From the IMG/VR virus record IMGVR_UViG_3300021197_001596, positions 1 to 64,000 of that record: 64,000 nt of DNA; one strand, written 5' to 3'. This document shows, piece by piece, positions 9,124 to 55,442 of the stretch. The stretch is from a virus. Position 1 is the stretch's first letter, and each line of letters begins with the position of its first letter. The translations under genes and the position numbers were made by a program. Under the pieces are notes generated by a model. That model saw only the letters and a list, made by a program, of their open reading frames with translations. It had not been told where the DNA came from and did no database searches.

Positions 9124-12100
9124 TTATTCATTTTTAGATGGTAGATACATATCTCCTGTATAAAAGTTTTTCCATTGATCAGACTCAGCCGCATCTACCG
9201 TTGCTCTATTGTCTCCTATGTTTATAGTATATAATGATGGAAAATTTGGGTTTTCAATATGATCCCAATATGCTTCATAATTACCTTGAAATACAAAATC
9301 CTTAAGAGAGTAATCATATTCATATTTTGGCTCTGGTTTTTTTGCTCCCGACGTTATTATCATCCTTGTAAAATCCCAATAACTAGCACCTAAACGTTTT
9401 AAATCAGCTGTTGGACCTGAAGCACCAACTATTTGTGGACTATACAAACGTAACCCATTAACATTTACATTTGAATATACTTGAACACCTATAGTAAGCG
9501 TACCTTTACCTTTCGAATCCATTTGTACTTTTGCTTCCCAAGTATTTAAAGAAGGATCAGTTACTTTCCAGCCGTATGTTTCTACGTGTTCAATTGCTTT
9601 TTGAGCATAAATACCTTTTGGATAAGAAGAAGATGTTACGATCATTAATTGTTTATTTCTAGAATTGTTAGAAACATTATTTCCGGATACGTTCGATATA
9701 TTTGTATATCTTTGGTCAAAATAAGTTCCTTTTACTGTTATTTCTTTATTTGCATAAGCTGGATTTTCTAGATAAAACTCTTGGTATTGAATAATACCAC
9801 CACTGTTAGACGGTATGCTTCTTGTGTAACCCATGTTACCTTTATACGCAAGGTATGATGGATCATCGTCAAAATTTGATATTGAACAATTTGTTTCTTC
9901 TATAGTTATTGGAGCTTCTCCTTGCAAAAAATTGTAATGGCCTTTAGGTACAGCTGATCCACCTGCATTAAGAAATTTATTTTCATCACTATAAACAAGG
10001 TTTGGATTATCTTTTATATACACAGGAAATCTATTACCGACATACGCTAAATCACCATCATTTGTTCTTAAATAAATAAGACTACCTTTTTTTAATGGTG
10101 AGTCTTTAGAAATAACATCTACAAAATCTACGTTGTCGTCATGAACTAAATTACATGGATTACTTGTGTGATCAAAATTTCCTATTTTTGCAAGATATTT
10201 GTTGAAAAAATTAGGATGATCGTTAACTGCTGTTATTGTAAGTTCTGGTGCATAATAAGCGTTACCAACGGCATTGTTATTAAAATTGACTAGCATATTA
10301 ACCGTAAGAGTTTTACCGTCCGCGCTAACTTCAAAAGTATTTGTTACTTGTTTTGAATCCCCAAATATATCAGTATAAGTACCAGCAGCTGCTTTTGTAA
10401 AATAACTACCTAAGTTTGTTATATTATACTTTGATGTGCTAGTGTTATCTGGATCCCACCAATAAAATAAACTTTCGGGCATTTTAATCACATGCTGTAT
10501 TAATTTATTTCCCGCAGATCCATCAGTAATCCAATATCTACCAGAAGTTAAATCACTAAAAGAATTATTTACGTTTTGTATTCCATTACCTGCAAAAAAA
10601 GTTTCTAAACCATTAGATCCTTTCCATCTTTGTTTAAAACCATCAACATTACGTACAATACTGTCTATGTTTCTAAACGTTCTTTGATTTTGTGGTCCAT
10701 TTTCAAAAGTTGAACCGGCTGGTGCAGTGTAAAGAGTTGAATTATATGATTCAGAACTTGCATACCCATTTATTTTAGTAAAGCCTGATGATTTTAATTG
10801 CGTTGCAAAAGCTATAAGAGCTCTTATTTCAACACCGGTATTAGCTTCAAAAAGCTCCTCTAAAGGTCTGATTGTATATGTTTGATTTGTTGAGGGCGCA
10901 ACAAAAGTTTTATTTTTAAAACCTACGACAATTTCACTATTGTTAACACTATTGTAAGAACCAAATGAAACTTTTTCATTAAAAGCAAAGGTTGCTGTAA
11001 CATCGTTATTAGATGAGTCATATATTTTAAAAGGTATTATATTAGTAAATGTTTTTTTATTTTTATAACCAGAAGCCGCAGTTAAGGAAAAATGACGATT
11101 AATCATACTCGTGTGTGGCTTATTTGCTTTTGTTGTTACTGTATAAGGTACACTTGCACCGTTATATCCAGCTATAGTATAATTTGACGTAGCCGATCCA
11201 CCAGCTATAGTATTAGAATAAGCAAAAGTTATTGTTACGTTTTTTTCTAATAAATTATTTAAGTTTAATTCAAAAAACTCTGATTCAATAAAACTAGTAG
11301 ATTTTAAATTACCCTTTATTAATAAAGTATCATTAGTTGCTGTAGTTAAAGTAAACGTATTAAATGTTATTTTTGTCTCTGTGTCGTTACTATCAAAAAC
11401 TATGTCGTCCATAACAGGAATCTTACTAAGATTATAGCCAGTTCCATCTAATGTATATGAAAATGTAAAATCAATATCAGCAATATCATCTACATAACCA
11501 GAAACAATAACAGGACTATTTGTTAAAGACTGCGCGGTTGTAATGTTATTTCCAATATTAACAGTAAACGTTATATCATTGACATATCTAACTTTTCTAA
11601 AAATATTAAAAGTTTCATCACCAAAAGTACTAGAAAAAACAGTTCCCGACACTGTTTTCAACTTTACAGTATATGTCTGTGCAGTATCTCCAGCTGGAAA
11701 AACTAAATCTATATAAGACTTTAAAGTATCAGATGGTATTTTCCCATTAACTGTTTTTATAACACTAGACCCTTCTAAAAAAACAAGTTCATATTCTGCG
11801 TTTTTTTCACCGTTTAATACCAACGTTCTAGTCTCACCATTATTATCAATGTCACTAGTGTTTAAATTTTTAGTAAATATTATTTTATCAGGTATTATTA
11901 TTTTATGAGCTACAGCACTTATAGTGTAGTTTATATTTGCAGAATTTGTTCTTGGTATGGTTATAGTTTCTACAACTTCAACATTTCCATTATCTAATTT
12001 GTTTTTACTTATAGAAATTAAAGGATTATCTATAGTTATATCTTCAACATTAATATAATAACCATCTATAGGTTTTATTATTCTTTTATTTATCTGTTGA

Positions 12101-15100
12101 ACCGTATTTGGATCTTCTGTTATTTGATAATTACCGTTTCCAATATCGTCTGTTACAAAAGGACCTTCTACACTATAAGTACCACTTATTTTTACTGGTT
12201 TCAACACTGATTTTCCAGATAATGTAATATTTTTAGTTTCGTTATTAGATGGATTTAAAGATTCAAGATATTCTCCTTTTGTTTTTACAATAACGTTTGG
12301 TGAAGAGTTTTCAACAGTTATTAAATTACTAGGCGTTGTAAATTGTGTTTTTTCTATTAAATAACCATTAGTAGGAATTAATATTATTTCAACATCATCT
12401 ATACTACCATCTTGTTTTATTTCTATCGATTGTTTTATATCACTACTCCAAGACTGACCATCAATTATTTTAACATTAAAATCATCAAGATCCTGTGCAC
12501 CCACAGTAACATCATAATCTATTTCATTTGGTTTTCTTATTGATCTACCTATACCTTGTGTAGAAAAGTTTTTGTGATCTAGAGTATTTAGTTTTTTTGA
12601 TTCTTGCGTTATATTGGTAAAAAATTTATTTTCTTTCGGTGTAAAAGTTGTTTCTAAACCAGTGACTTGATCAGTAGTTATTTTTTTTGCAACCCAACCG
12701 CTGGTGCCTTCGTATCCTAAAGTTTTATATTTTTTAATAACAGATGGATCTTCGTTTATTATGAATTCAACTTCAGAATTATATTGCGTACCATAGAAGT
12801 TATTTCTTAAAACATTTTCGCTGTCATGCCGCCACAATTCACCATTTCTGTATGTATAATAAATATTATTCAAATACACAGAGTTTTCAGGAATAAAAGA
12901 AGCCCTTGTTACCCAACCGTTTACATCCTCAGAAAAACAAACAGTATCTAACCCATCAAAAGAAATATTATACAACTTTCTTCTTGCATCATAGCTTCCA
13001 TAAAAAGTATCTGCAGTAAATAATCTTTGACGGAAAAAACTGTTCATATAGTTTTTTGATATTGGAGTTAATCCATCTTTTGATAATCTAATAATAACAC
13101 CTCTAGTTTTGTCAGCAAAATAGCATCTAAAACCATGTGAAGCAAAAGATTCTGGATGAGTACCAATACCAAACTCACCATTATATTCTATAGGATCTCC
13201 TATCACTCTGCTATCGGATATTAAATTAGAAGAACCATTAGCATTGTAAAGAGCTGATTTATTAGCTAAAACCCTTAGTGTTTTATCTTCGCAAATTACA
13301 ACCATAGAATCATTCCACCCATGCAACTTTTGTATACTTCCATATGATGGTAAAAAATCTTTTGTTATTGGATTTGCCATATTAAACTCATTAGATCTAT
13401 TAACACCAGATCTTGAGTTAACTATACCCGACCATATTAAAGAATTAAACTTGTGTTCTTCTTTGAATGGTTCATCTAAAACAGTTGAAGCTTTGACACC
13501 ATTGTCTATAAACACAGCATTATAATCATCTCTTATTCTATTTGATTCAACACCATTACCAAAAGAAATACAATTATACCAGTTTAAGTTGTAATTCTCG
13601 TTGTGTGTGCTGATAGAAAGTATATCTGAAGCTTCAAAATATATATTTAATTCTGTTTTACTTTCTAACGGTTCTGTTTCAAATATAGCTGGCTCTTTTA
13701 CTACTAGATTTTCTTCTACTCTCTCCTCTAATATCTCCATCCTTGGTTCATTCATCCAAGTGTCGTCACCTCTTGTTACTACATCTTTTAATAATGGTTG
13801 AAAATTTCCATCTTCATCTATAAACCTAAAGTGTAATTCAGTATAACTTCTGCTTTTTACCAAAATACCACCACCATGCTTTGTAGCGTAAGCGGTTCTT
13901 AAAGTTTGACCAATTTCATATACCTTATCGTGATGTGGAGTACCATCTGGATTTACAAATCTTACGAAATTACCAACTTTAGCTGTTTTTTGTAATTTAT
14001 CAACTTCAGAATTTCTACGTCTCGTAGAGGCTTCTACTGTGATATTGTATTCTATTGAACCAGCATCGTGTCTTTTGCCTGTTTCATAAGTACTACCAGG
14101 CGTCACAGTTCCTCCCTTAGAAATAACAAAATCATTTCTTGGGTTGGCAGATGCGCTATCTTTACCTCTGTTTATATTTTTCCATTTGTTAGCTCCAGAT
14201 CTACCTGTACCACTAGCATCTTTTGATGAGTATATACCTATCATGTTAAAATCAAATTTAACCAAATAGCTAACTCCTCCAATATCTTGTGTTATTATAG
14301 AATTTATTAAAGTAGAGTTAGATTTAAGTTTAACAAAAAATCTTCCATCAAATTCTTTATCACCAGCGTCAATAAACTCTTCTAAGACGTTCATGCTAAC
14401 CCCGAGATTTGTGTTTGGATCTCCTAGATTACCACTTGTTTTATTATATATTATCTCTACATCTTCTCCAAAAGGTTCTTCAAAATCTATTTTTATTTCA
14501 TTAGACCCAGCCGGATCTTGTGATAGTCTTTTTATTTTATAAGCTTTTGATTCTTTACCTAAATACTCAAAACTTATATATCTACCAGGCCTTATTTCTT
14601 TAGTTTCTTCTAATTCTACACCGTTAGAACTACCATTAGCTTGTTTCAACTGTACGCTTGCTCTTTCATTCAACGGTGCAGCATTACTAGCATCATCTTT
14701 GTTGGTTATTGTAACTCCTCCACCAGAGCCTTTATAGTCATCAGTAAAAACTAAATTACCCAATGATCTTACGGTTCTTTTTCTAGCAGTTATAAATTCA
14801 GGCGGTTCAGCGGATATGTCTATTATTTTATATCTATTTTCAGTAGAATCAACAGCGTTATTATCTCCATGATTCTTTTTTAACAACAAATAATGTTCAT
14901 CTGTGACTTTGTTCCTTTCTGAAGAAGGAAAACTTATATACATAAAACCGTTTTCAACATCATTGTAAAAACGGTCTGCTGCTAAGTTATAGAATTCACC
15001 AGATGTGTCTTTTATAAAATACCTATAGTGTGTTGCCCAAGGTGGGGGTGGTGTTGTAATAGATGCAGATATTCTGTTTTGTGCAGACGACTTTGATTTT

Positions 15101-16905
15101 GGTACAGTTATAACACCTGTATCATTTGAAAAAACAGGTGTTTGTCTGTTATATTCATCTGAATAAACAACGCCTAGTTGATAGTTGCGATTTGACTTAA
15201 CACTTATTCTTCTGTCTGCATTTGCGGTATTAAGTTTAACATCAAAATTAGGGTCTTTAAATACATCATAATTCTGTATATAATTACCATAAACAACTCT
15301 GTTAGCAGTAACTTCTTGTGCTTTTGCTTTCCTTGGTACATTGTCCCACTGTCTTAGTAACTGGTCATTAGCTACCAACGATTTAATTTGCTCTTTTCTT
15401 ATTGTAAAAGAATTTTCAAAATCTATTCTTTTTTTAGTAGTTAATATATATATATTGTTATTTCTGGTCTCTTTAAATATTATTTCAATATCCTCTACTT
15501 CATCTGATCCTAAATCAAAATCTTCTAATAAAACCTTACGGACTTGGTTTATCATGCCGTAATTGTAGGCCTCTTTACCATCATATTTAAAACCGTTTCT
15601 GTTTACTTTTAAGTTTGGATAAAAAGCTGGTTGTGTAAAAGGCGAGAAAACAGAATATTCTCCGTTTTTATATTTCCATCTATATGCAAATCTCACAAAA
15701 GCTAGTTCGTATATAGGATCTTCTTCTATTAAATTTGCCGTAAATAGATGACTTTGTTTAACAGGGTCGTCTGAATCTATGTTAGAAATAACAACTTTAA
15801 TACTTTTATTGGTAGCATCAATGCTTTGTATCCTACATTCTAATGATAAATCAGCGTCTTCTGTAACAAACAAAGCAGATTGACCAACAACCCAATTAGG
15901 TATATCACCAAAATCAACTATATCAACTTCATCACCGGCTATTTTATCAACAAAATTAACCTGTGCTGTAATCGTAGTATTACCAGTTATGTCAGTATCA
16001 AATAAAGTTAAGTTAGGAGCCTTTAGAGGAGCTTTCTTTATTACAGATATGTCATCTTCATTTATTGGTCTGTAATCAATTTTAAAAGCACCATTTGAGT
16101 CTTTATACTTGTATGATATCTGCGTTTGATTAGCTATGTGTTTGTAATTTTTAAATTCAGATATATTTATTCTTCTGGGCTGATTTACATTATCTGTCCA
16201 AAACAAAAGACCATCAATTATATTTATACCTGTTATTAAATTATTTTTTGAAAAATTTAAAAAACCAGAATCGGTATATGTAAAATTTATATCTAAATTT
16301 CCAAAATGTTTTCCATTGTATGGTATATTTTTAAACTCAATACTTTCATTGTTATTATTTAAAACACTTGTGTTTTTTGGTGCTGTAATTTTTAAATCAA
16401 TTTCTGAGCACTCTATATCTATGTTACTATGTGTTAAACCATATTTTTGAGGAGAATCGGGCGTTGCCTTTTCTAAGTTTTTGCCTAATAAACTATTAAA
16501 CTCTAACTCACTATATGAAAAAGATAACTCGCCTTCTACATTTGAATATACAGAAACATCTTTTATTGTAATTGTTTGAATTGTTTTTTCATCTAACAAT
16601 ACAGGTTTTACTTCTTTAGTCTTTTCATCAAACTCATAAATAGCATCTATAGAATCAGAAGTTACTATCCAATATATTTTATCATTTTTACTATCAGATA
16701 TACTGCCTAATGTTTTTGCATTTTGTAACTGTAGATCAGACAAAAGTTCATTACCTAACGTGTTTTCTATTGATCCAACATCAGATCCTTCTGATGATGA
16801 AATTTGAATATTTAAAGCATCAGTATATTCACCATTAGGTATAAGTCTATCGTCCAGGTCTTTGTTCATTCTACCTGACGTAAAAGTATGCTTTAGTTCT
16901 GCCAT
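9124..16905 (-). CDS. Giant tail nozzle/stabilisation protein (gp12-like, extended)
   Basis: 2593 residues. The N-terminus (KHTFTSGRMNKDLDDRL, NGEYTDALNI, GSDVGSIENTLGN) matches what I recall of the tail stabilisation/nozzle proteins of crAss-like and Cellulophaga podoviruses: a ring protein opening with a short anchor and a beta-propeller. The first about 1400 residues contain repeated beta-strand and propeller-like stretches with conserved aromatic turns (LHGWNDSMVVICED). The remaining about 1100 are threonine/asparagine-rich beta repeats resembling adhesin or Ig-like modules. It overlaps the upstream ring protein by one base (TAATG). Most likely it forms the tail tube end; the long C-terminal extension may contact host surface glycans (inference). 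Confidence 0.75.
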   Translation of the reverse strand: MAELKHTFTSGRMNKDLDDRLIPNGEYTDALNIQISSSEGSDVGSIENTLGNELLSDLQLQNAKTLGSISDSKNDKIYWIVTSDSIDAIYEFDEKTKEVKPVLLDEKTIQTITIKDVSVYSNVEGELSFSYSELEFNSLLGKNLEKATPDSPQKYGLTHSNIDIECSEIDLKITAPKNTSVLNNNNESIEFKNIPYNGKHFGNLDINFTYTDSGFLNFSKNNLITGINIIDGLLFWTDNVNQPRRINISEFKNYKHIANQTQISYKYKDSNGAFKIDYRPINEDDISVIKKAPLKAPNLTLFDTDITGNTTITAQVNFVDKIAGDEVDIVDFGDIPNWVVGQSALFVTEDADLSLECRIQSIDATNKSIKVVISNIDSDDPVKQSHLFTANLIEEDPIYELAFVRFAYRWKYKNGEYSVFSPFTQPAFYPNLKVNRNGFKYDGKEAYNYGMINQVRKVLLEDFDLGSDEVEDIEIIFKETRNNNIYILTTKKRIDFENSFTIRKEQIKSLVANDQLLRQWDNVPRKAKAQEVTANRVVYGNYIQNYDVFKDPNFDVKLNTANADRRISVKSNRNYQLGVVYSDEYNRQTPVFSNDTGVITVPKSKSSAQNRISASITTPPPPWATHYRYFIKDTSGEFYNLAADRFYNDVENGFMYISFPSSERNKVTDEHYLLLKKNHGDNNAVDSTENRYKIIDISAEPPEFITARKRTVRSLGNLVFTDDYKGSGGGVTITNKDDASNAAPLNERASVQLKQANGSSNGVELEETKEIRPGRYISFEYLGKESKAYKIKRLSQDPAGSNEIKIDFEEPFGEDVEIIYNKTSGNLGDPNTNLGVSMNVLEEFIDAGDKEFDGRFFVKLKSNSTLINSIITQDIGGVSYLVKFDFNMIGIYSSKDASGTGRSGANKWKNINRGKDSASANPRNDFVISKGGTVTPGSTYETGKRHDAGSIEYNITVEASTRRRNSEVDKLQKTAKVGNFVRFVNPDGTPHHDKVYEIGQTLRTAYATKHGGGILVKSRSYTELHFRFIDEDGNFQPLLKDVVTRGDDTWMNEPRMEILEERVEENLVVKEPAIFETEPLESKTELNIYFEASDILSISTHNENYNLNWYNCISFGNGVESNRIRDDYNAVFIDNGVKASTVLDEPFKEEHKFNSLIWSGIVNSRSGVNRSNEFNMANPITKDFLPSYGSIQKLHGWNDSMVVICEDKTLRVLANKSALYNANGSSNLISDSRVIGDPIEYNGEFGIGTHPESFASHGFRCYFADKTRGVIIRLSKDGLTPISKNYMNSFFRQRLFTADTFYGSYDARRKLYNISFDGLDTVCFSEDVNGWVTRASFIPENSVYLNNIYYTYRNGELWRHDSENVLRNNFYGTQYNSEVEFIINEDPSVIKKYKTLGYEGTSGWVAKKITTDQVTGLETTFTPKENKFFTNITQESKKLNTLDHKNFSTQGIGRSIRKPNEIDYDVTVGAQDLDDFNVKIIDGQSWSSDIKQSIEIKQDGSIDDVEIILIPTNGYLIEKTQFTTPSNLITVENSSPNVIVKTKGEYLESLNPSNNETKNITLSGKSVLKPVKISGTYSVEGPFVTDDIGNGNYQITEDPNTVQQINKRIIKPIDGYYINVEDITIDNPLISISKNKLDNGNVEVVETITIPRTNSANINYTISAVAHKIIIPDKIIFTKNLNTSDIDNNGETRTLVLNGEKNAEYELVFLEGSSVIKTVNGKIPSDTLKSYIDLVFPAGDTAQTYTVKLKTVSGTVFSSTFGDETFNIFRKVRYVNDITFTVNIGNNITTAQSLTNSPVIVSGYVDDIADIDFTFSYTLDGTGYNLSKIPVMDDIVFDSNDTETKITFNTFTLTTATNDTLLIKGNLKSTSFIESEFFELNLNNLLEKNVTITFAYSNTIAGGSATSNYTIAGYNGASVPYTVTTKANKPHTSMINRHFSLTAASGYKNKKTFTNIIPFKIYDSSNNDVTATFAFNEKVSFGSYNSVNNSEIVVGFKNKTFVAPSTNQTYTIRPLEELFEANTGVEIRALIAFATQLKSSGFTKINGYASSESYNSTLYTAPAGSTFENGPQNQRTFRNIDSIVRNVDGFKQRWKGSNGLETFFAGNGIQNVNNSFSDLTSGRYWITDGSAGNKLIQHVIKMPESLFYWWDPDNTSTSKYNITNLGSYFTKAAAGTYTDIFGDSKQVTNTFEVSADGKTLTVNMLVNFNNNAVGNAYYAPELTITAVNDHPNFFNKYLAKIGNFDHTSNPCNLVHDDNVDFVDVISKDSPLKKGSLIYLRTNDGDLAYVGNRFPVYIKDNPNLVYSDENKFLNAGGSAVPKGHYNFLQGEAPITIEETNCSISNFDDDPSYLAYKGNMGYTRSIPSNSGGIIQYQEFYLENPAYANKEITVKGTYFDQRYTNISNVSGNNVSNNSRNKQLMIVTSSSYPKGIYAQKAIEHVETYGWKVTDPSLNTWEAKVQMDSKGKGTLTIGVQVYSNVNVNGLRLYSPQIVGASGPTADLKRLGASYWDFTRMIITSGAKKPEPKYEYDYSLKDFVFQGNYEAYWDHIENPNFPSLYTINIGDNRATVDAAESDQWKNFYTGDMYLPSKNE

Positions 16906-26778: not shown

Positions 26779-27053
26779 TATTTAGATCTTTTTTCAGCAA
26801 ACCCTCCAAAACTTTTTTTACTTTCTGCTGGCTTATCATCCATAATATTTTTTTCCGCTTCTATACGTGAAAGTATTTCAAAAGCATCGAATATCGCTAG
26901 TTTTTTAGTTGCTGCTGCATTTTTTAATCTATCTGCTGCTAATTCGTCTTCCGCACCATCTACAATTATTTCTTCTTCAGCTACTCTAATAAGTTCGTGT
27001 ACCGCTTTATATCCAGCTTGGATTATACTCGATTTCAGTTCCTTCTCTGTCAT
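26778..27053 (-). CDS. Candidate terminase small subunit
   Basis: 91 residues, helical and acidic in the middle (HELIRVAEEEIIVDGAEDEL), then LKNAAATKKLAIFDAFEIL and a basic C-terminus. It immediately precedes TerL with a one-base overlap, and I recall this short helical pattern upstream of TerL in many marine phages. No clear helix-turn-helix was seen by eye, and size is below typical TerS (about 140-180), so the role is inferred from position. Its start overlaps the end of the upstream gene by 47 bases. Confidence 0.65.
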   Translation of the reverse strand: MTEKELKSSIIQAGYKAVHELIRVAEEEIIVDGAEDELAADRLKNAAATKKLAIFDAFEILSRIEAEKNIMDDKPAESKKSFGGFAEKRSK

Positions 27054-27603
27054 ATTTAATTGCTATTGAATTTATAGGTACTCTATATAATTTTTCGTTA
27101 TCAATAACGAACTCATATTCGCTATTCGGCGTAAAGCCTACTAAATTATCTTCTGAAAGATTAAAGCTTCTTAAATGGCTCCCTAGATACTTTAAAATGC
27201 CTATTAATGGCTTTTCTTTTTGCTCGCTAAGCTTTTTATTTTCAGCTATTGGCTTTACAAAACAATAATCTTCCGGAGTGTACCATTTATTATTTCTTTT
27301 ATATAAAAATATTTGGTCTATATAACAAAAAAATAAATCGTCTTTAAAATAATTACTGCTATTGGTGGCTTTTCCTCGCATATTATAATACCTTCTAAAT
27401 GTATTATGATGCACAATAACTTCATCGCCTTTTTGCAATGTAGAATTGTTTATAGGAGTTTCTACAACAACACCTACTCTATTTACGAATTTATGATCCT
27501 CTATAGATGTATTTAAAATTAAATTAGAATCACCTACTTTTTTATTATTAGTATATCTACCATTAATAGGTTTTATAATATAAGCGTGTAAATGCTTCAT
27601 CAA
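27007..27603 (-). CDS. GroES-like beta-barrel protein, unknown role
   Basis: 198 residues. It begins HLHAYIIKPINGRYTN, continues with an apparent co-chaperonin-like layout (NTSIEDHKFVNRVGVVVETP, then LQKGDEVIVHHNTFRRYYN), and repeats beta strands to the C-terminus. The V-V-x-V-x-x-P / KGDEVIVHH pattern is like Cpn10 (GroES) barrels, but the mobile-loop hydrophobic triplet is not evident and the protein is twice the usual GroES length. I recall similar genes beside TerL in marine phages. A second, better GroES is at 41928-42188. The overlap with the next gene suggests coupling. Confidence 0.6.
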   Translation of the reverse strand: MMKHLHAYIIKPINGRYTNNKKVGDSNLILNTSIEDHKFVNRVGVVVETPINNSTLQKGDEVIVHHNTFRRYYNMRGKATNSSNYFKDDLFFCYIDQIFLYKRNNKWYTPEDYCFVKPIAENKKLSEQKEKPLIGILKYLGSHLRSFNLSEDNLVGFTPNSEYEFVIDNEKLYRVPINSIAIKYDREGTEIEYNPSWI

Positions 27604-47276: not shown

Positions 47277-47346
47277 CGGTTGTTTTTTTTAAGATTAATC
47301 TAATTAGTTTACATGCATGTATTATAACTTGTTATATTACGTTGTA

Positions 47347-47523
47347 TTATTCTTTTTTAAGTGGTTTCATTTTATTATAAAGAGCTTGTGCTAATACAAC
47401 TTCGTCGGGATTACACCGGTCTAAGTTTTCAGTTAACGACTTAAATTCATTTGCCGTGTTTTTTGGGGCTGCGCAGCTTGCGGTCAGACTTGCCACAAGT
47501 GCACTCATTAGTAATGTTCTCAT
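47347..47523 (-). CDS. Small lipoprotein, candidate o-spanin
   Basis: 58 residues from MRTLLMSALVASLTASC; an upstream in-frame ATG at 47556 would extend it by 11 residues. The hydrophobic N-terminus ends in LTAS-Cys, a lipobox, so the mature protein would be anchored in the outer membrane. The short rest (ENLDRCNPDEV, ALYNKMKPLKKE) is polar. It overlaps the 67-residue gene in another frame. With the TM/coiled-coil protein at 47693-47932 it resembles a two-component spanin pair that joins inner and outer membranes during lysis. Spanin role is inference. Confidence 0.6.
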   Translation of the reverse strand: MRTLLMSALVASLTASCAAPKNTANEFKSLTENLDRCNPDEVVLAQALYNKMKPLKKE

Positions 47524-47650
47524 AAGGTTTGTTTGTTTGTGCGATATGTATTTCAATAAGCGCGTTAGTTAGTGCGTCGATACTCTTACGTATCTCCTTT
47601 AATTCGTTACGTATACCGTTACTTTTTACGTTAATTGTTTCTTTGCTCAT
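47447..47650 (-). CDS. Small charged protein, unknown
   Basis: 67 residues. N-terminal half is an amphipathic helix (LKEIRKSIDALTNALIEIHIAQ) and the C-terminal half has CTCG and a basic tail (RKLRSPKKHGK, with a SPKK tag-like element). It overlaps the lipoprotein gene in a different frame. No recognised family. Weak support: open frame, position, and coding-like composition. Confidence 0.5.
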   Translation of the reverse strand: MSKETINVKSNGIRNELKEIRKSIDALTNALIEIHIAQTNKPYENITNECTCGKSDRKLRSPKKHGK

Positions 47651-47692
47651 TATATTTAATTAAATTATGTACGTTACATTATATGATTCAGT

Positions 47693-47932: not shown

Positions 47933-48055
47933 ACTTATATGATTACATGCTATTTAAAGAAATCAAAAGTGCGACGTTAGCCTACTACATATATAATATT
48001 AATACCCTATTGTCACATAAATGGGATACTTAATTTTCTAGTAAGAAATATAGAG

Positions 48056-48079
48056 GTAACGTATTACACGTAACGTATT
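48056..48079. repeat. Direct repeat GTAACGTATT x2
   Basis: Two identical 10-mers 14 bases apart (separator ACAC) in the divergent promoter region. Near-helical spacing suggests a dimer-binding operator; no regulator has been matched to it. Confidence 0.5.
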
Positions 48080-48176
48080 GGCAACCAGCCCCTTACACTA
48101 AACTGTTTATTTTACCCCACCCCCGTTACATTTATAACACATTGTTGATTTTTTTTAGCTTTTTAATTTTAGTTTT

Positions 48177-48216
48177 TTACGTGCAAAACACGAACTAATT
48201 TGGATAATCTAGTTAG
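48177..48216 (+). promoter_or_regulatory. Early repeat element copy 1 (TTAC-N8-CACGA-N7-TGGATAAT)
   Basis: TTAC at 48177, CACGA at 48189-48193, TGGATAAT at 48201-48208. Unlike copies 2-5 it is not followed by an ATG within 40 bases; copy 2 lies 78 bases downstream, so the two form a tandem at the head of the early arm. The region between them contains the palindrome at 48231-48249. Confidence 0.7.
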
Positions 48217-48230
48217 GCTCCGACTTCAAT

Positions 48231-48249
48231 TATACATTTTTAATGTATA
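48231..48249. promoter_or_regulatory. Perfect 8-bp palindrome, possible operator or hairpin
   Basis: TATACATT-TTT-AATGTATA, a perfect 8-bp stem with a 3-base loop, located between early element copies 1 and 2. As DNA it could bind a dimeric repressor; as RNA it would fold into a hairpin. Confidence 0.5.
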
Positions 48250-48254
48250 GCAAA

Positions 48255-48294
48255 TTACAAAGCTAGCACGATCCATTTTGGATAATATATATGT
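48255..48294 (+). promoter_or_regulatory. Early repeat element copy 2
   Basis: TTAC at 48255, CACGA at 48267-48271, TGGATAAT at 48279-48286, followed by ATATATATG and an A-rich leader to the ATG of the first early gene (48314), 35 bases after the TGG. The identical spacing in all six copies argues for one recognition factor. Confidence 0.75.
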
Positions 48295-48313
48295 AACAAA
48301 TAAAGAAACAATT

Positions 48314-51230: not shown

Positions 51231-51444
51231 AACTAAAGACGAAATATTACAGGAAATATTTGATAACGACCCTATGGGAATATTGGATGATAAGATTGAA
51301 ACAAAACCAATGCCAAGCGACTGGTGGAACCACGGTATTAATCCTATACTAGGATATAAATACGAAAAACCTGTTTGGAATACCCGAACAAGAGATAAAT
51401 GGGAATACCCAGAAGAAGATAACTATAATCCTAATGAAGATTAA
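51223..51444 (+). CDS. Early small protein 13, unknown
   Basis: 73 residues from MTKTKDEILQEIF; the longer upstream start would run inside the previous gene in another frame and adds a basic hydrophobic stretch unlike the neighbours. Acidic with WWNHGINPILGYKYE and an Asp/Asn-rich tail. Overlaps the preceding gene by 8 bases. Unrecognised. Confidence 0.55.
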   Translation: MTKTKDEILQEIFDNDPMGILDDKIETKPMPSDWWNHGINPILGYKYEKPVWNTRTRDKWEYPEEDNYNPNED

Positions 51445-51445
51445 T

Positions 51446-51592
51446 ATGGCAGGAAATAAATACAATACACCATTTGCTATACACCGACCTCATTTTTACG
51501 AATTACAATATAAAAATAAAGATGGTGAAATACATATAATGACGGGCACACCAAAACAAGTGATTAATTATATCCTTAATCAACAACTATAA
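51446..51592 (+). CDS. Early small protein 14, unknown
   Basis: 48 residues: FAIHRPHFYELQYKNKDGE then PKQVINYILNQQL. It is the last gene before the non-coding island; its stop is followed by a T-run and a small hairpin. Unrecognised. Confidence 0.55.
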   Translation: MAGNKYNTPFAIHRPHFYELQYKNKDGEIHIMTGTPKQVINYILNQQL

Positions 51593-51622
51593 ACTTTTTT
51601 TCAAACAGTGTGTGTTTGTTGT

Positions 51623-51679
51623 AAGACCAAAAAACCGTCGTACCTCTGCAGGGGTAAATAAAACCGGCGGTGAGGTCTT
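51623..51679 (+). ncRNA. Three-tier hairpin, possible riboswitch or structured RNA
   Basis: Outer stem AAGACC/GGTCTT (6 bp), an internal loop (AAAAAA opposite TGA), middle stem CCGTCG/CGGCGG (6 bp with one wobble), then a one-base versus nine-base asymmetry, and inner stem ACCTC/GGGGT (5 bp, one wobble) closed by TGCA. Nested stems with A-rich internal loops resemble structured regulatory RNAs, but I cannot match a known class. Confidence 0.55.
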
Positions 51680-51757
51680 TACATTCACAATAATACGGAT
51701 TTTCTTGTGTGTATTCAATTTTCATGCACAAAAATGCCAAATAAAATATTAAGAGCG

Positions 51758-51821
51758 CCGAAGGATTGCTGACGAGCGATATATACTAGTTATAAATGCA
51801 GGTAATGAGCTGCGCCTTCGG
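51758..51821 (+). repeat. CCGAAGG/CCTTCGG inverted repeat
   Basis: Seven perfect complementary bases (eight with one G:T) whose arms are 50 bases apart and flank an AT-rich stretch with TATATACTAGTTATAA. It ends 4 bases before the tRNA-like domain, and the two could form one RNA. Confidence 0.5.
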
Positions 51822-51825
51822 TCAT

Positions 51826-51904
51826 GGGCGTGACGGGTAAGTGCTGACAAAGTTCTAAAGTACACTATCAGCAAACGGAGGTTCGACTCCTCCCGCGTCC
51901 ACTA
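51826..51904 (+). ncRNA. tRNA-like domain lacking a normal anticodon arm
   Basis: Length 75 plus a 3' flank. Acceptor arms GGGCGTG (51826-51832) and CGCGTCC (51894-51900) pair over 7 bp with G3:U70 and a T6:G67 wobble. The T arm, GGAGG-TTCGACT-CCTCC (51877-51893), has the exact T-loop consensus TTCRANY and abuts the 3' acceptor strand as in a tRNA. Discriminator A73 (51901) is followed by CTA, not CCA. Instead of D and anticodon arms there is a 10-base single strand and one 5-bp stem GCTGA/TCAGC with a 20-base loop. G3:U70 and A73 are alanine identity elements, as in tmRNA. It may be a tRNA-like/tmRNA-like mimic or a decayed tRNA. Confidence 0.6.
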
Positions 51905-51921
51905 AATAAAATTAAATTAAT

Positions 51922-52083
51922 ATGAAAACTAAACTAAAACAAACAATAAATAATCAATTTAGGGTCCTATGGTCATACAATAAAGGGCTCAGAGGGGGTT
52001 ACGAAGATTTTAACACTGAAGCGCAAGCTGAGAATTTTAGAAAATTTATAATAAAAAATTGGAAAACTTATGGAAAAACCTAA
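51922..52083 (+). CDS. Early small basic protein, unknown
   Basis: 53 residues (MKTKLKQTINNQFRVLWSYN, then RGGYEDFNTEAQAENFRKF), basic at both ends. First gene after the non-coding island. It overlaps the next gene by 14 bases. Unrecognised. Confidence 0.5.
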   Translation: MKTKLKQTINNQFRVLWSYNKGLRGGYEDFNTEAQAENFRKFIIKNWKTYGKT

Positions 52084-54094: not shown

Positions 54095-54712
54095 ATGTCG
54101 CATAGAAAACTCGAGTATTTTAATCGAAGACGTATCGTATATCGACGCGATCCAATAACTGATACCCCTTCTGAAACATTTAGTTGGGGTAACTTTTATG
54201 AGAATGGTACGTATGAATGCTACCAACTATTTAGATCAAAGGCAAAAATTACATCATATAGATCCTTTAAATGGCATGTACTTGTTCTCTGGTATTTAAA
54301 TAAAAGTCTTACTTATGATGATATTTTAGAATTAACTTGCTATCTTGCTGATAAGGATAATGGTTTTGTAACTATAAAGCTTAATGACACAAGCATAATC
54401 AATTTAGTTGATGAAGTGTTTGAAAAAGATTTAGATAAACCACCTAAAAACAAAATACGTAAGATTATATTTAAAGATAGTTCAGGATTAACGACAACTG
54501 AAAAATTAAAAATTGTAGGCAGTATAATTGGTAGAAAGAAAAAAGCAGAGGCACCGGATATATATGAGGCAATGCTGGGCATACACGACAATAATAAAAA
54601 AATAACCATATCAAAAATTGCAAGCTTATTAAACGTTTCAACTAGAACAATTTATAGAAATATAACTTCGGAAATTAAGCAAGAAAAAATGTTATTAAAT
54701 GAAGAAGTATAA
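54095..54712 (+). CDS. HTH DNA-binding regulator
   Basis: 205 residues. N-terminus RKLEYFNRRRIVYRRDPITD and a WGNFYENG segment; the C-terminus has a clear helix-turn-helix (ITISKIASLLNVSTRTIYRNI, about 168-188) plus charged tail. The C-terminal HTH resembles that of homeodomain-like or Mga-type regulators. I recall this layout in marine phage early regions. The stop overlaps the sigma factor start (14 bases), so they are co-translated and may act together. It is likely to control the early-to-late switch; target unknown. Confidence 0.7.
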   Translation: MSHRKLEYFNRRRIVYRRDPITDTPSETFSWGNFYENGTYECYQLFRSKAKITSYRSFKWHVLVLWYLNKSLTYDDILELTCYLADKDNGFVTIKLNDTSIINLVDEVFEKDLDKPPKNKIRKIIFKDSSGLTTTEKLKIVGSIIGRKKKAEAPDIYEAMLGIHDNNKKITISKIASLLNVSTRTIYRNITSEIKQEKMLLNEEV

Positions 54713-55442
54713 CATACAAAATTATGTTAGGTTTAAACATGACTTAGCAAGTTATGGCGACATCCCTGACACAGGAGACGGCAGGCAAGATTTAATTATA
54801 TCTCATATGAGTTTAGTTGAAACAATAGCACGTAAATTTTCTACCTCACAGCAGGCATCAGGAGTTATGACTATAAATGATTTAATTCAAGAAGGAGCTA
54901 TTGGTTTAATAGCAGCAGTAGATAAAATTGATTGGAACCAAATAACAGACTCTACTGAACCTCAACGCACACTTAATAGTTTTTTAAGTAAACGCATTAA
55001 AGGTGCAATAAGAAGGGCTATTGATATAAACAGAGGTAACATACGTATACCTGAGCATAAATTAAATGATATGCGTAAAAATTGTGAAGCTGAAAAGAAA
55101 ACTGTTGAAATGTTTTTTAATAGTATTTTTTATTCTTTAGATGAAACAGATAATGAAAACAATACATTTTATGAAATAGCAGATAATTCAAAAGACTACA
55201 ACATTGATATAATGAATAAATATTTGTTATCAATAATGGAATCTAATTTAAGCATTAAAGAATATGATGTACTGCGAATGAGTTATGGCTTAGACTGTGA
55301 TAAAATGTCCGCTAAAGAAATAGCCGACAAATTGGCAATAAAAGGTACAGCATCATACGTAAGAATATCGCAAATAAAAAGGGACGCAATAAATAAGTTA
55401 ATCGAGAGTGTAAGTCCAGCTCAAGTTATTGATTTTCTGTAA
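54699..55442 (+). CDS. Phage-encoded sigma-70-family factor
   Basis: 247 residues. Region 2: LIISHMSLVETIARKFS and MTINDLIQEGAIGLIAAVDKIDW (core-binding and -10 recognition); region 3-like RNGNIRIPEHKL; region 4: YDVLRMSYGLDCDKMSAKEI then SYVRISQIKRDAINKL (HTH for -35). Region 1 is absent, as in alternative sigma factors. It would redirect host RNA polymerase, most likely to phage late or middle promoters. Encoded with the HTH protein in one overlap. No phage RNA polymerase was seen in the window, so this sigma is the only visible transcription engine. Confidence 0.9.
   Translation: MKKYNIQNYVRFKHDLASYGDIPDTGDGRQDLIISHMSLVETIARKFSTSQQASGVMTINDLIQEGAIGLIAAVDKIDWNQITDSTEPQRTLNSFLSKRIKGAIRRAIDINRGNIRIPEHKLNDMRKNCEAEKKTVEMFFNSIFYSLDETDNENNTFYEIADNSKDYNIDIMNKYLLSIMESNLSIKEYDVLRMSYGLDCDKMSAKEIADKLAIKGTASYVRISQIKRDAINKLIESVSPAQVIDFL

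Follow-up and report, generated by a model that had tools for sequence, protein, structure and literature searches.

A variable phage cassette of predicted structured RNAs with exchangeable cargo on a tRNA-like scaffold

Introduction

What does a closely packed arm of a marine phage keep in 329 bases that appear to encode no protein? The question is raised by positions 51593-51921 of the first 64,000 nucleotides of IMG/VR virus record IMGVR_UViG_3300021197_001596 (a contig of 65,534 bases), those 64,000 being the whole stretch analyzed here and referred to as the window, where an island in the rightward arm is bounded by a stop codon ending at 51592 and an ATG at 51922. A preliminary description of this DNA had taken the island to be non-coding, to contain at least four pairing units, and to be a good candidate for one or several RNAs with a regulatory or host-targeting role. 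Comparison with related viruses indicates that a clade of presumed flavobacterial podoviruses has a changeable cassette of structured RNAs at one locus, and that this island is one form of it. Two things had escaped that description: one of the units is tRNA-like, and the modules of the cassette are shuffled among relatives.

Results

No supported reading frame was found within 51593-51921, as had been claimed. The whole island folds better than its dinucleotide shuffles (z -2.9, 1 of 100 shuffles being as good), and folding z-scores of the separate units run from -3.6 to -1.9, with -0.6 for the spacer at 51683-51754. Folding energy by itself is modest evidence; the deciding evidence for the three predicted elements A, B, and C is covariation across relatives. 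The island and these elements are laid out as follows.

51593-51921, plus strand: non-coding island (RNA cassette locus), 329 bases, with syntenic islands in relatives
51621-51682, plus strand: element A, with P1 (51623-51628 paired with 51674-51679), P2, P3, and conserved A-rich internal loops; z -3.6
51755-51823, plus strand: element B, a three-way junction with conserved GACG and GGTAATG loops; z -2.6
51826-51904, plus strand: element C, a tRNA-like scaffold carrying cargo X, 79 nt; z -2.0
51826-51832 with 51894-51900, plus strand: acceptor stem of C, including G3:U70
51833-51842, plus strand: D-loop of C, without a stem
51843-51872, plus strand: cargo X inside C, its conserved core CAAAGTTCTAAAGTACACTA (51848-51867) closed by the helix GCTGA/TCAGC
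51877-51893, plus strand: T-arm of C
51901 and 51902-51904, plus strand: A73 and the tail CTA of C

Relatives were found through a neighboring DnaA-C-domain protein (7 viral loci) and through a 48-aa open reading frame (ORF) upstream of the island (26 viral loci). Models of A, B, and C were built from checked members and searched against all loci, with covariance-model matches for A at 20 loci and for B at 15, and covariation was scored on the refitted alignments. Both sides had changed in 10 of the 18 pairs of A (80.8% of cells paired; score 0.321 versus 0.166 for shuffles), in 8 of the 17 pairs of B (87.2%; 0.405 versus 0.235), and in 10 of the 20 pairs of C (99.2%; 0.312 versus 0.115). For each element 0 of 500 shuffles attained the observed score, a count that is not a probability, because the alignments lean toward the model and the sequences share descent; sliding the pairs by one to three columns cut the score strongly. 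Compensation is visible by eye in P1 of A, which occurs as AAGACC/GGTCTT, GGCC/GGCC, GGGTC/GACCC, and AGGACC/GGTCCT, and the T-stem of C occurs as GGAGG/CCTCC, GCAGG/CCTGC, GTAGG/CCTAC, GAGGG/CCCTC, and GCGGG/CCCGC. A and B are not tRNA-like, yet are as well conserved as C. The preliminary description had placed all three units correctly to within a few bases. A fourth, the small hairpin at 51602-51618 (plus strand; CAAACA/TGTTTG; z -1.9), is shared with the nearest relative alone (L002/L012) and lacks support as a conserved element; the claim of four or more pairing units is borne out for A, B, and C and not supported for this hairpin.

Most of the closer relatives have structured non-coding DNA at the equivalent position, with differing sets of modules. 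The nearest relative has the order A-B-C; others have D-B-A, D-A-B, D-E-B, G-D-B-F, C-G-B-A-K-tRNA, and more. Some 14 module types, lettered by us, are gained, lost, reordered, and nested in many orders over a map of about 30 islands, and at loci L029-L032 and L037 the upstream gene is present with no cassette beside it. A tRNA-Met(CAT) whose encoded tail is ACTA rather than ACCA stands last in the cassette at L013, L014, L016, L026, L033, L034, L036, L055, L058, and L068; as read from its sequence it has initiator-type features, namely three G:C pairs in the anticodon stem and a 1:72 mismatch. Conservation, covariation, and reuse of modules in relatives together bear out the idea of a structured RNA of several units, and neither of the two findings named beforehand as counting against it, absent covariation and absent conservation in relatives, applies.

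Element C is best described, from its predicted anatomy, as a tRNA-like domain that has no D-arm and is similar to the corresponding part of transfer-messenger RNA (tmRNA), with an alanine-type G3:U70. It has the acceptor stem and T-arm of a tRNA, it shares its locus with phage tRNAs, and it resembles the neighboring phage tRNA-Met in its ACTA tail; unlike members of the tRNA family (RF00005) and of phage tRNA arrays, it has no D-stem, and a 20-nt cargo region takes the place of the anticodon arm with its seven-base loop. It scores 20.1 bits with the tRNA model, under the gathering threshold of 29, and ARAGORN calls no gene there. With tmRNA (RF00023) it shares the alanine identity pair G3:U70 with A73, the T-arm, the missing D-stem, a UGGUU-type D-loop, and, where the anticodon arm would be, a helix that opens into additional RNA; unlike tmRNA it lacks the mRNA-like domain with resume codon and tag frame as well as the pseudoknot ring, and carries exchangeable cargo. 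In a permissive Rfam search of the window the sole meaningful match was that of tmRNA to C (26.5 bits, E 8.5e-9, cut-off 47), with the interior almost wholly skipped. Because this model also gives about 18-24 bits to ordinary tRNA-like matches in host genomes, we do not base kinship on this match; it is suggested by the missing D-stem and by the better scores of other copies, of which the one in L108 reaches 37.5 bits, still under the threshold. A relationship between C and the tRNA-like domain of tmRNA is accordingly tentative, and identity of C as an ordinary tRNA or tmRNA is rejected on score and anatomy. A reading frame through C (GCT GAC AAA ... CAC TAA) is open in the window, but is broken by 3- and 4-nt insertions in relatives and contradicted by the stem covariation.

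No Rfam gathering-score match or ARAGORN call lies within the window, and when the window and its relatives were searched with Rfam 15, which includes GOLLD, ROOL, and the known riboswitches, tRNAs alone reached gathering score; no Rfam family matched A, B, or any examined cargo.

Further scaffolds were sought with a pattern that fixed the 3′ half, U70 included, and left the matching 5′ strand free; an exact search for the window's own T-arm sequence gave no match. The pattern occurs in 43 viral contigs, representing 41 distinct copies of 71-152 nt in total length. All 41 have 7 of 7 acceptor pairs, G3:U70, and 5 of 5 T-stem pairs, together with A73 and a CTA or CAA tail; upstream of the 3′ half, at a variable distance, each has GGGCGTG or a compensated form of it.

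The interiors of these scaffolds differ. About 15 unrelated cargos replace the anticodon arm; they form 17 BLAST clusters, and we judged two of these to be divergent versions of others. At least six cargo families also occur off the scaffold, where they retain their core but have a different closing stem. The cargo of the window, X (the loop of C, CAAAGTT..AGTACACTA), was found both inside and outside the scaffold when searched alone, in the latter case in hairpins closed by TAGTTAA/TTAACTA or TAGCTAG/CTAGCTA and also within GGCGTG..CACGCC. Nine distinct helices close the X core, all paired over 4-7 contiguous bases, and chance matches to the core elsewhere have 0-3. Cargo is also nested, within the scaffold in L123 and within another large module in L120. 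The exchange can be followed at syntenic loci: L061 and L108 have a downstream protein (66 aa) that is 100% identical, scaffolds that are 91-100% alike, and different cargo; L118 and L120, at 91-92% in the same downstream protein, have a third; and cargo is likewise exchanged between L097/L101 and L117 and between L121 and L063. An architecture of scaffold plus cargo is well supported. A second, larger shared module (J2) was seen in L051, L061, L062, L108, L120, and L046; it also contains nested exchangeable motifs, so the tRNA-like domain is not the sole carrier.

The portal, terminase, and GroEL of the window virus match phage families. Its terminase is closest to that of MW202828.1 (62%), followed by those of Flavobacterium phages elemo (45%), Cellulophaga phages (36%), and Tenacibaculum phage Gundel_1 (32%), from which the host is presumed to be a member of the Flavobacteriia. 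Among 22 records searched whole there is at most one full scaffold match per record, some with additional stand-alone X; L105 has an apparent second copy. The X pattern gave seven matches in 84,980 bacterial and archaeal genomes, one of them a genuine element, in a B-C cassette on an 11.8-kb phage-like contig of this clade (L080, NZHE01000017.1) binned in a metagenome-assembled genome labeled Rickettsiales. Models of A, B, and C found nothing real in 199 Flavobacteriaceae genomes, under strict filters and with no positive control, so that weak members could escape; a B-like match in one of these genomes (L092, 28 bits) was rejected as it sits in an apparent protein gene. At blastn sensitivity the modules are absent from 50,697 GenBank phages, the sole match being the tRNA-Met end of one relative's island.

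Cultured phages hold some RNAs of related form. Cellulophaga phage phi38:1 (L073, KC821614.1) has at 26803-27164, minus strand, a full-length tmRNA (Rfam 87.6 bits) that is absent from the annotated features of the record and ends in CCTCCACTA, with the ACTA tail seen here, and at 15678-15750, minus strand, a smaller tRNA-like RNA with the same tail. MW202828.1 (L072) has at 14484-14536 a 53-nt mini tRNA-like RNA with an 8-bp acceptor, one hairpin, a T-arm, and an ACTA tail. In Flavobacterium phage elemoA_7-9A (L071) a non-coding gap of about 475 bases at 10175-10649, with an annotated tRNA-Ala, lies beside replication genes; it may be a cultured phage's equivalent of the cassette.

Discussion

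We propose that the island encodes A, B, and C as a cassette of separate structured non-coding RNAs, drawn from a reordered pool, with exchangeable cargo borne on the tRNA-like C, and that these RNAs act in trans as decoys; on the comparative evidence we regard this as evenly balanced between right and wrong. A, B, and C are codirectional with the surrounding early genes and would be transcribed with the early operon, from which the host tRNA-processing enzymes RNase P and RNase Z could excise the modules. The scaffold would then be CCA-completed and perhaps alanylated, and would stabilize, protect, and display its cargo. In bacteria G3:U70 is the major determinant of alanine identity, A73 and G2:C71 are also listed, and no anticodon determinant is (PMC9976931); this would fit a carrier that, like tmRNA, lacks an anticodon. 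The cargo cores, together with A and B, may bind host factors in trans as ligands, decoys, or sponges. The most likely targets would be changing ones such as defense systems, with defense driving turnover, and this would explain the fast replacement of cargo on a constant scaffold. The modules may be stabilized RNA decoys or effectors against host factors, with a plausible anti-defense function, and a regulatory or host-targeting role for the island RNAs, as originally suggested, is plausible. A broader formulation, which we put forward with somewhat less than even confidence, is a flavobacterial phage RNA display in which an alanine-type, anticodon-less carrier and at least about 15 pooled motifs, alone, nested, or carried, are swapped against defenses or to seize host factors.

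Several observations weigh against this proposal. The anti-defense role has turnover and locus as its only basis, and the carrier phages are known only as uncultivated contigs whose host is inferred from distant isolates. As U70 was set by the search pattern and the copies share descent, G3:U70 in 41 of 41 is weaker evidence for alanylation than the count implies, and the divergent copy L027 carries G3:C70 and U73 instead.

The alternatives that we take most seriously are that the modules are cis-acting and that C competes in trans-translation. The modules could be leader, stability, or processing elements of an early polycistronic mRNA, riboswitch-like or of the tRNA-punctuation kind, with C serving to mature the downstream message at its 5′ end: all modules lie between codirectional genes, and the series usually ends in C or a tRNA, in the window 17 nt before the next ATG. 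We consider this unlikely, since the same modules precede different downstream genes in varying order, some are nested, and some relatives keep the upstream gene with no cassette there. Alternatively, C might compete with host tmRNA as an alanylated, message-less RNA that binds SmpB and EF-Tu, fills stalled ribosomes, and blocks or redirects trans-translation, the cargo replacing the message domain and tuning the effect. The D-armless tRNA-like domain, the G3:U70 pair, and the helix into extra RNA would all fit, as would the higher tmRNA score of the L108 copy relative to ordinary host matches and the full tmRNA of phi38:1 with its ACTA tail, whereas the window copy itself scores low, the cargo is very diverse, and X and other cargos occur without the tRNA-like part, such that the scaffold cannot be the whole function; we rate this account as rather improbable.

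Some modules might instead be RNA anti-CRISPRs (Racrs) that mimic host CRISPR repeats, as Racrs occur in viral genomes as lone mimics of repeats (PMC10651486) and the modules are small phage hairpins with conserved cores. We think this very unlikely: the X core is in no repeat array among the 84,980 genomes, the models of A, B, and C have no real match in the Flavobacteriaceae genomes (the repeats of the true host being outside that comparison), and the lengths and multi-helix structures are unlike most repeats. Finally, the island could hold degenerate tRNA genes or remnants of attachment sites plus chance hairpins. The 3′ ends of tRNA genes often serve as attachment sites, and C is tRNA-like while falling under both the tRNA and tmRNA cut-offs. 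This we find scarcely credible, as nearly all C pair cells are intact and show compensatory changes, both acceptor strands are always present and paired, and A and B are equally conserved without being tRNA-like; unless the alignments are wrong, covariation contradicts it.

Individual features of the cassette have precedents. Phage-encoded tmRNAs are known (PMC9004378), and in the engineered tRNA scaffold for RNA expression (PMC3753655) a tRNA-shaped carrier likewise receives a foreign RNA motif at its anticodon arm, while C is natural and D-armless and its cargos also exist off the carrier. Racrs resemble the modules as small phage-encoded RNAs and possible decoys, but the modules show no likeness to CRISPR repeats in the genomes searched, have a tRNA-like carrier, and comprise many unrelated motifs. 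GOLLD and ROOL RNAs (PMC12286853) are structured phage RNAs of unassigned function, often near tRNA islands; they are large and cage-forming, and the modules have no Rfam match to either. Theta ribozymes (PMC10879173) are also structured elements adjoining phage tRNAs, whereas the modules here are reordered and grafted; no Rfam ribozyme matched the modules, in a collection that may or may not include a model of theta itself. The open-access literature, whose coverage leaves out preprints and most subscription journals, contained phage tmRNAs, Racrs, theta ribozymes, GOLLD/ROOL, and engineered scaffolds, but not this system.

In phages, rapid turnover is well known for cassettes of small proteins; we know of no account of a cassette in which structured RNAs are combined around a shared tRNA-like carrier. 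Such a cassette would give the engineered tRNA scaffold an equivalent in nature. It would also supply many new conserved RNA motifs that probably have binding partners, and it would offer a testable route by which phages could act on host systems through RNA rather than protein. Because each motif keeps its core while the closing helix is swapped, mutants of core versus stem would offer a direct functional test for each cargo.

A few features around the cassette complete the description of the locus, two of them the flanking genes.

51434-51592, plus strand: upstream ORF, 52 aa as listed, with the conserved 48-aa part from 51446; its stop codon adjoins the cassette
51922-52083, plus strand: downstream ORF, 53 aa, with its ATG 17 nt past element C

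Weak Rfam matches at 51424-51555 (BtsR1, mir-957, snoCD11, and psRNA6) are far under their cut-offs and were set aside. The sequence TGTGTGTTTGT, 5′ of A, was considered as a promoter and rejected: other copies lie in the start region of an opposite-strand gene, and nothing further supports it. At the divergent start of the rightward arm, 47300-47666 and 47943-48313 are two further stretches, each of about 370 bases, that contain no plus-strand ATG ORF of at least 38 aa. Downstream of the cassette, 54699-55439 has weak matches to sigma-70 region 2 and region 4, just under the Pfam cut-offs, and may encode a phage sigma factor.
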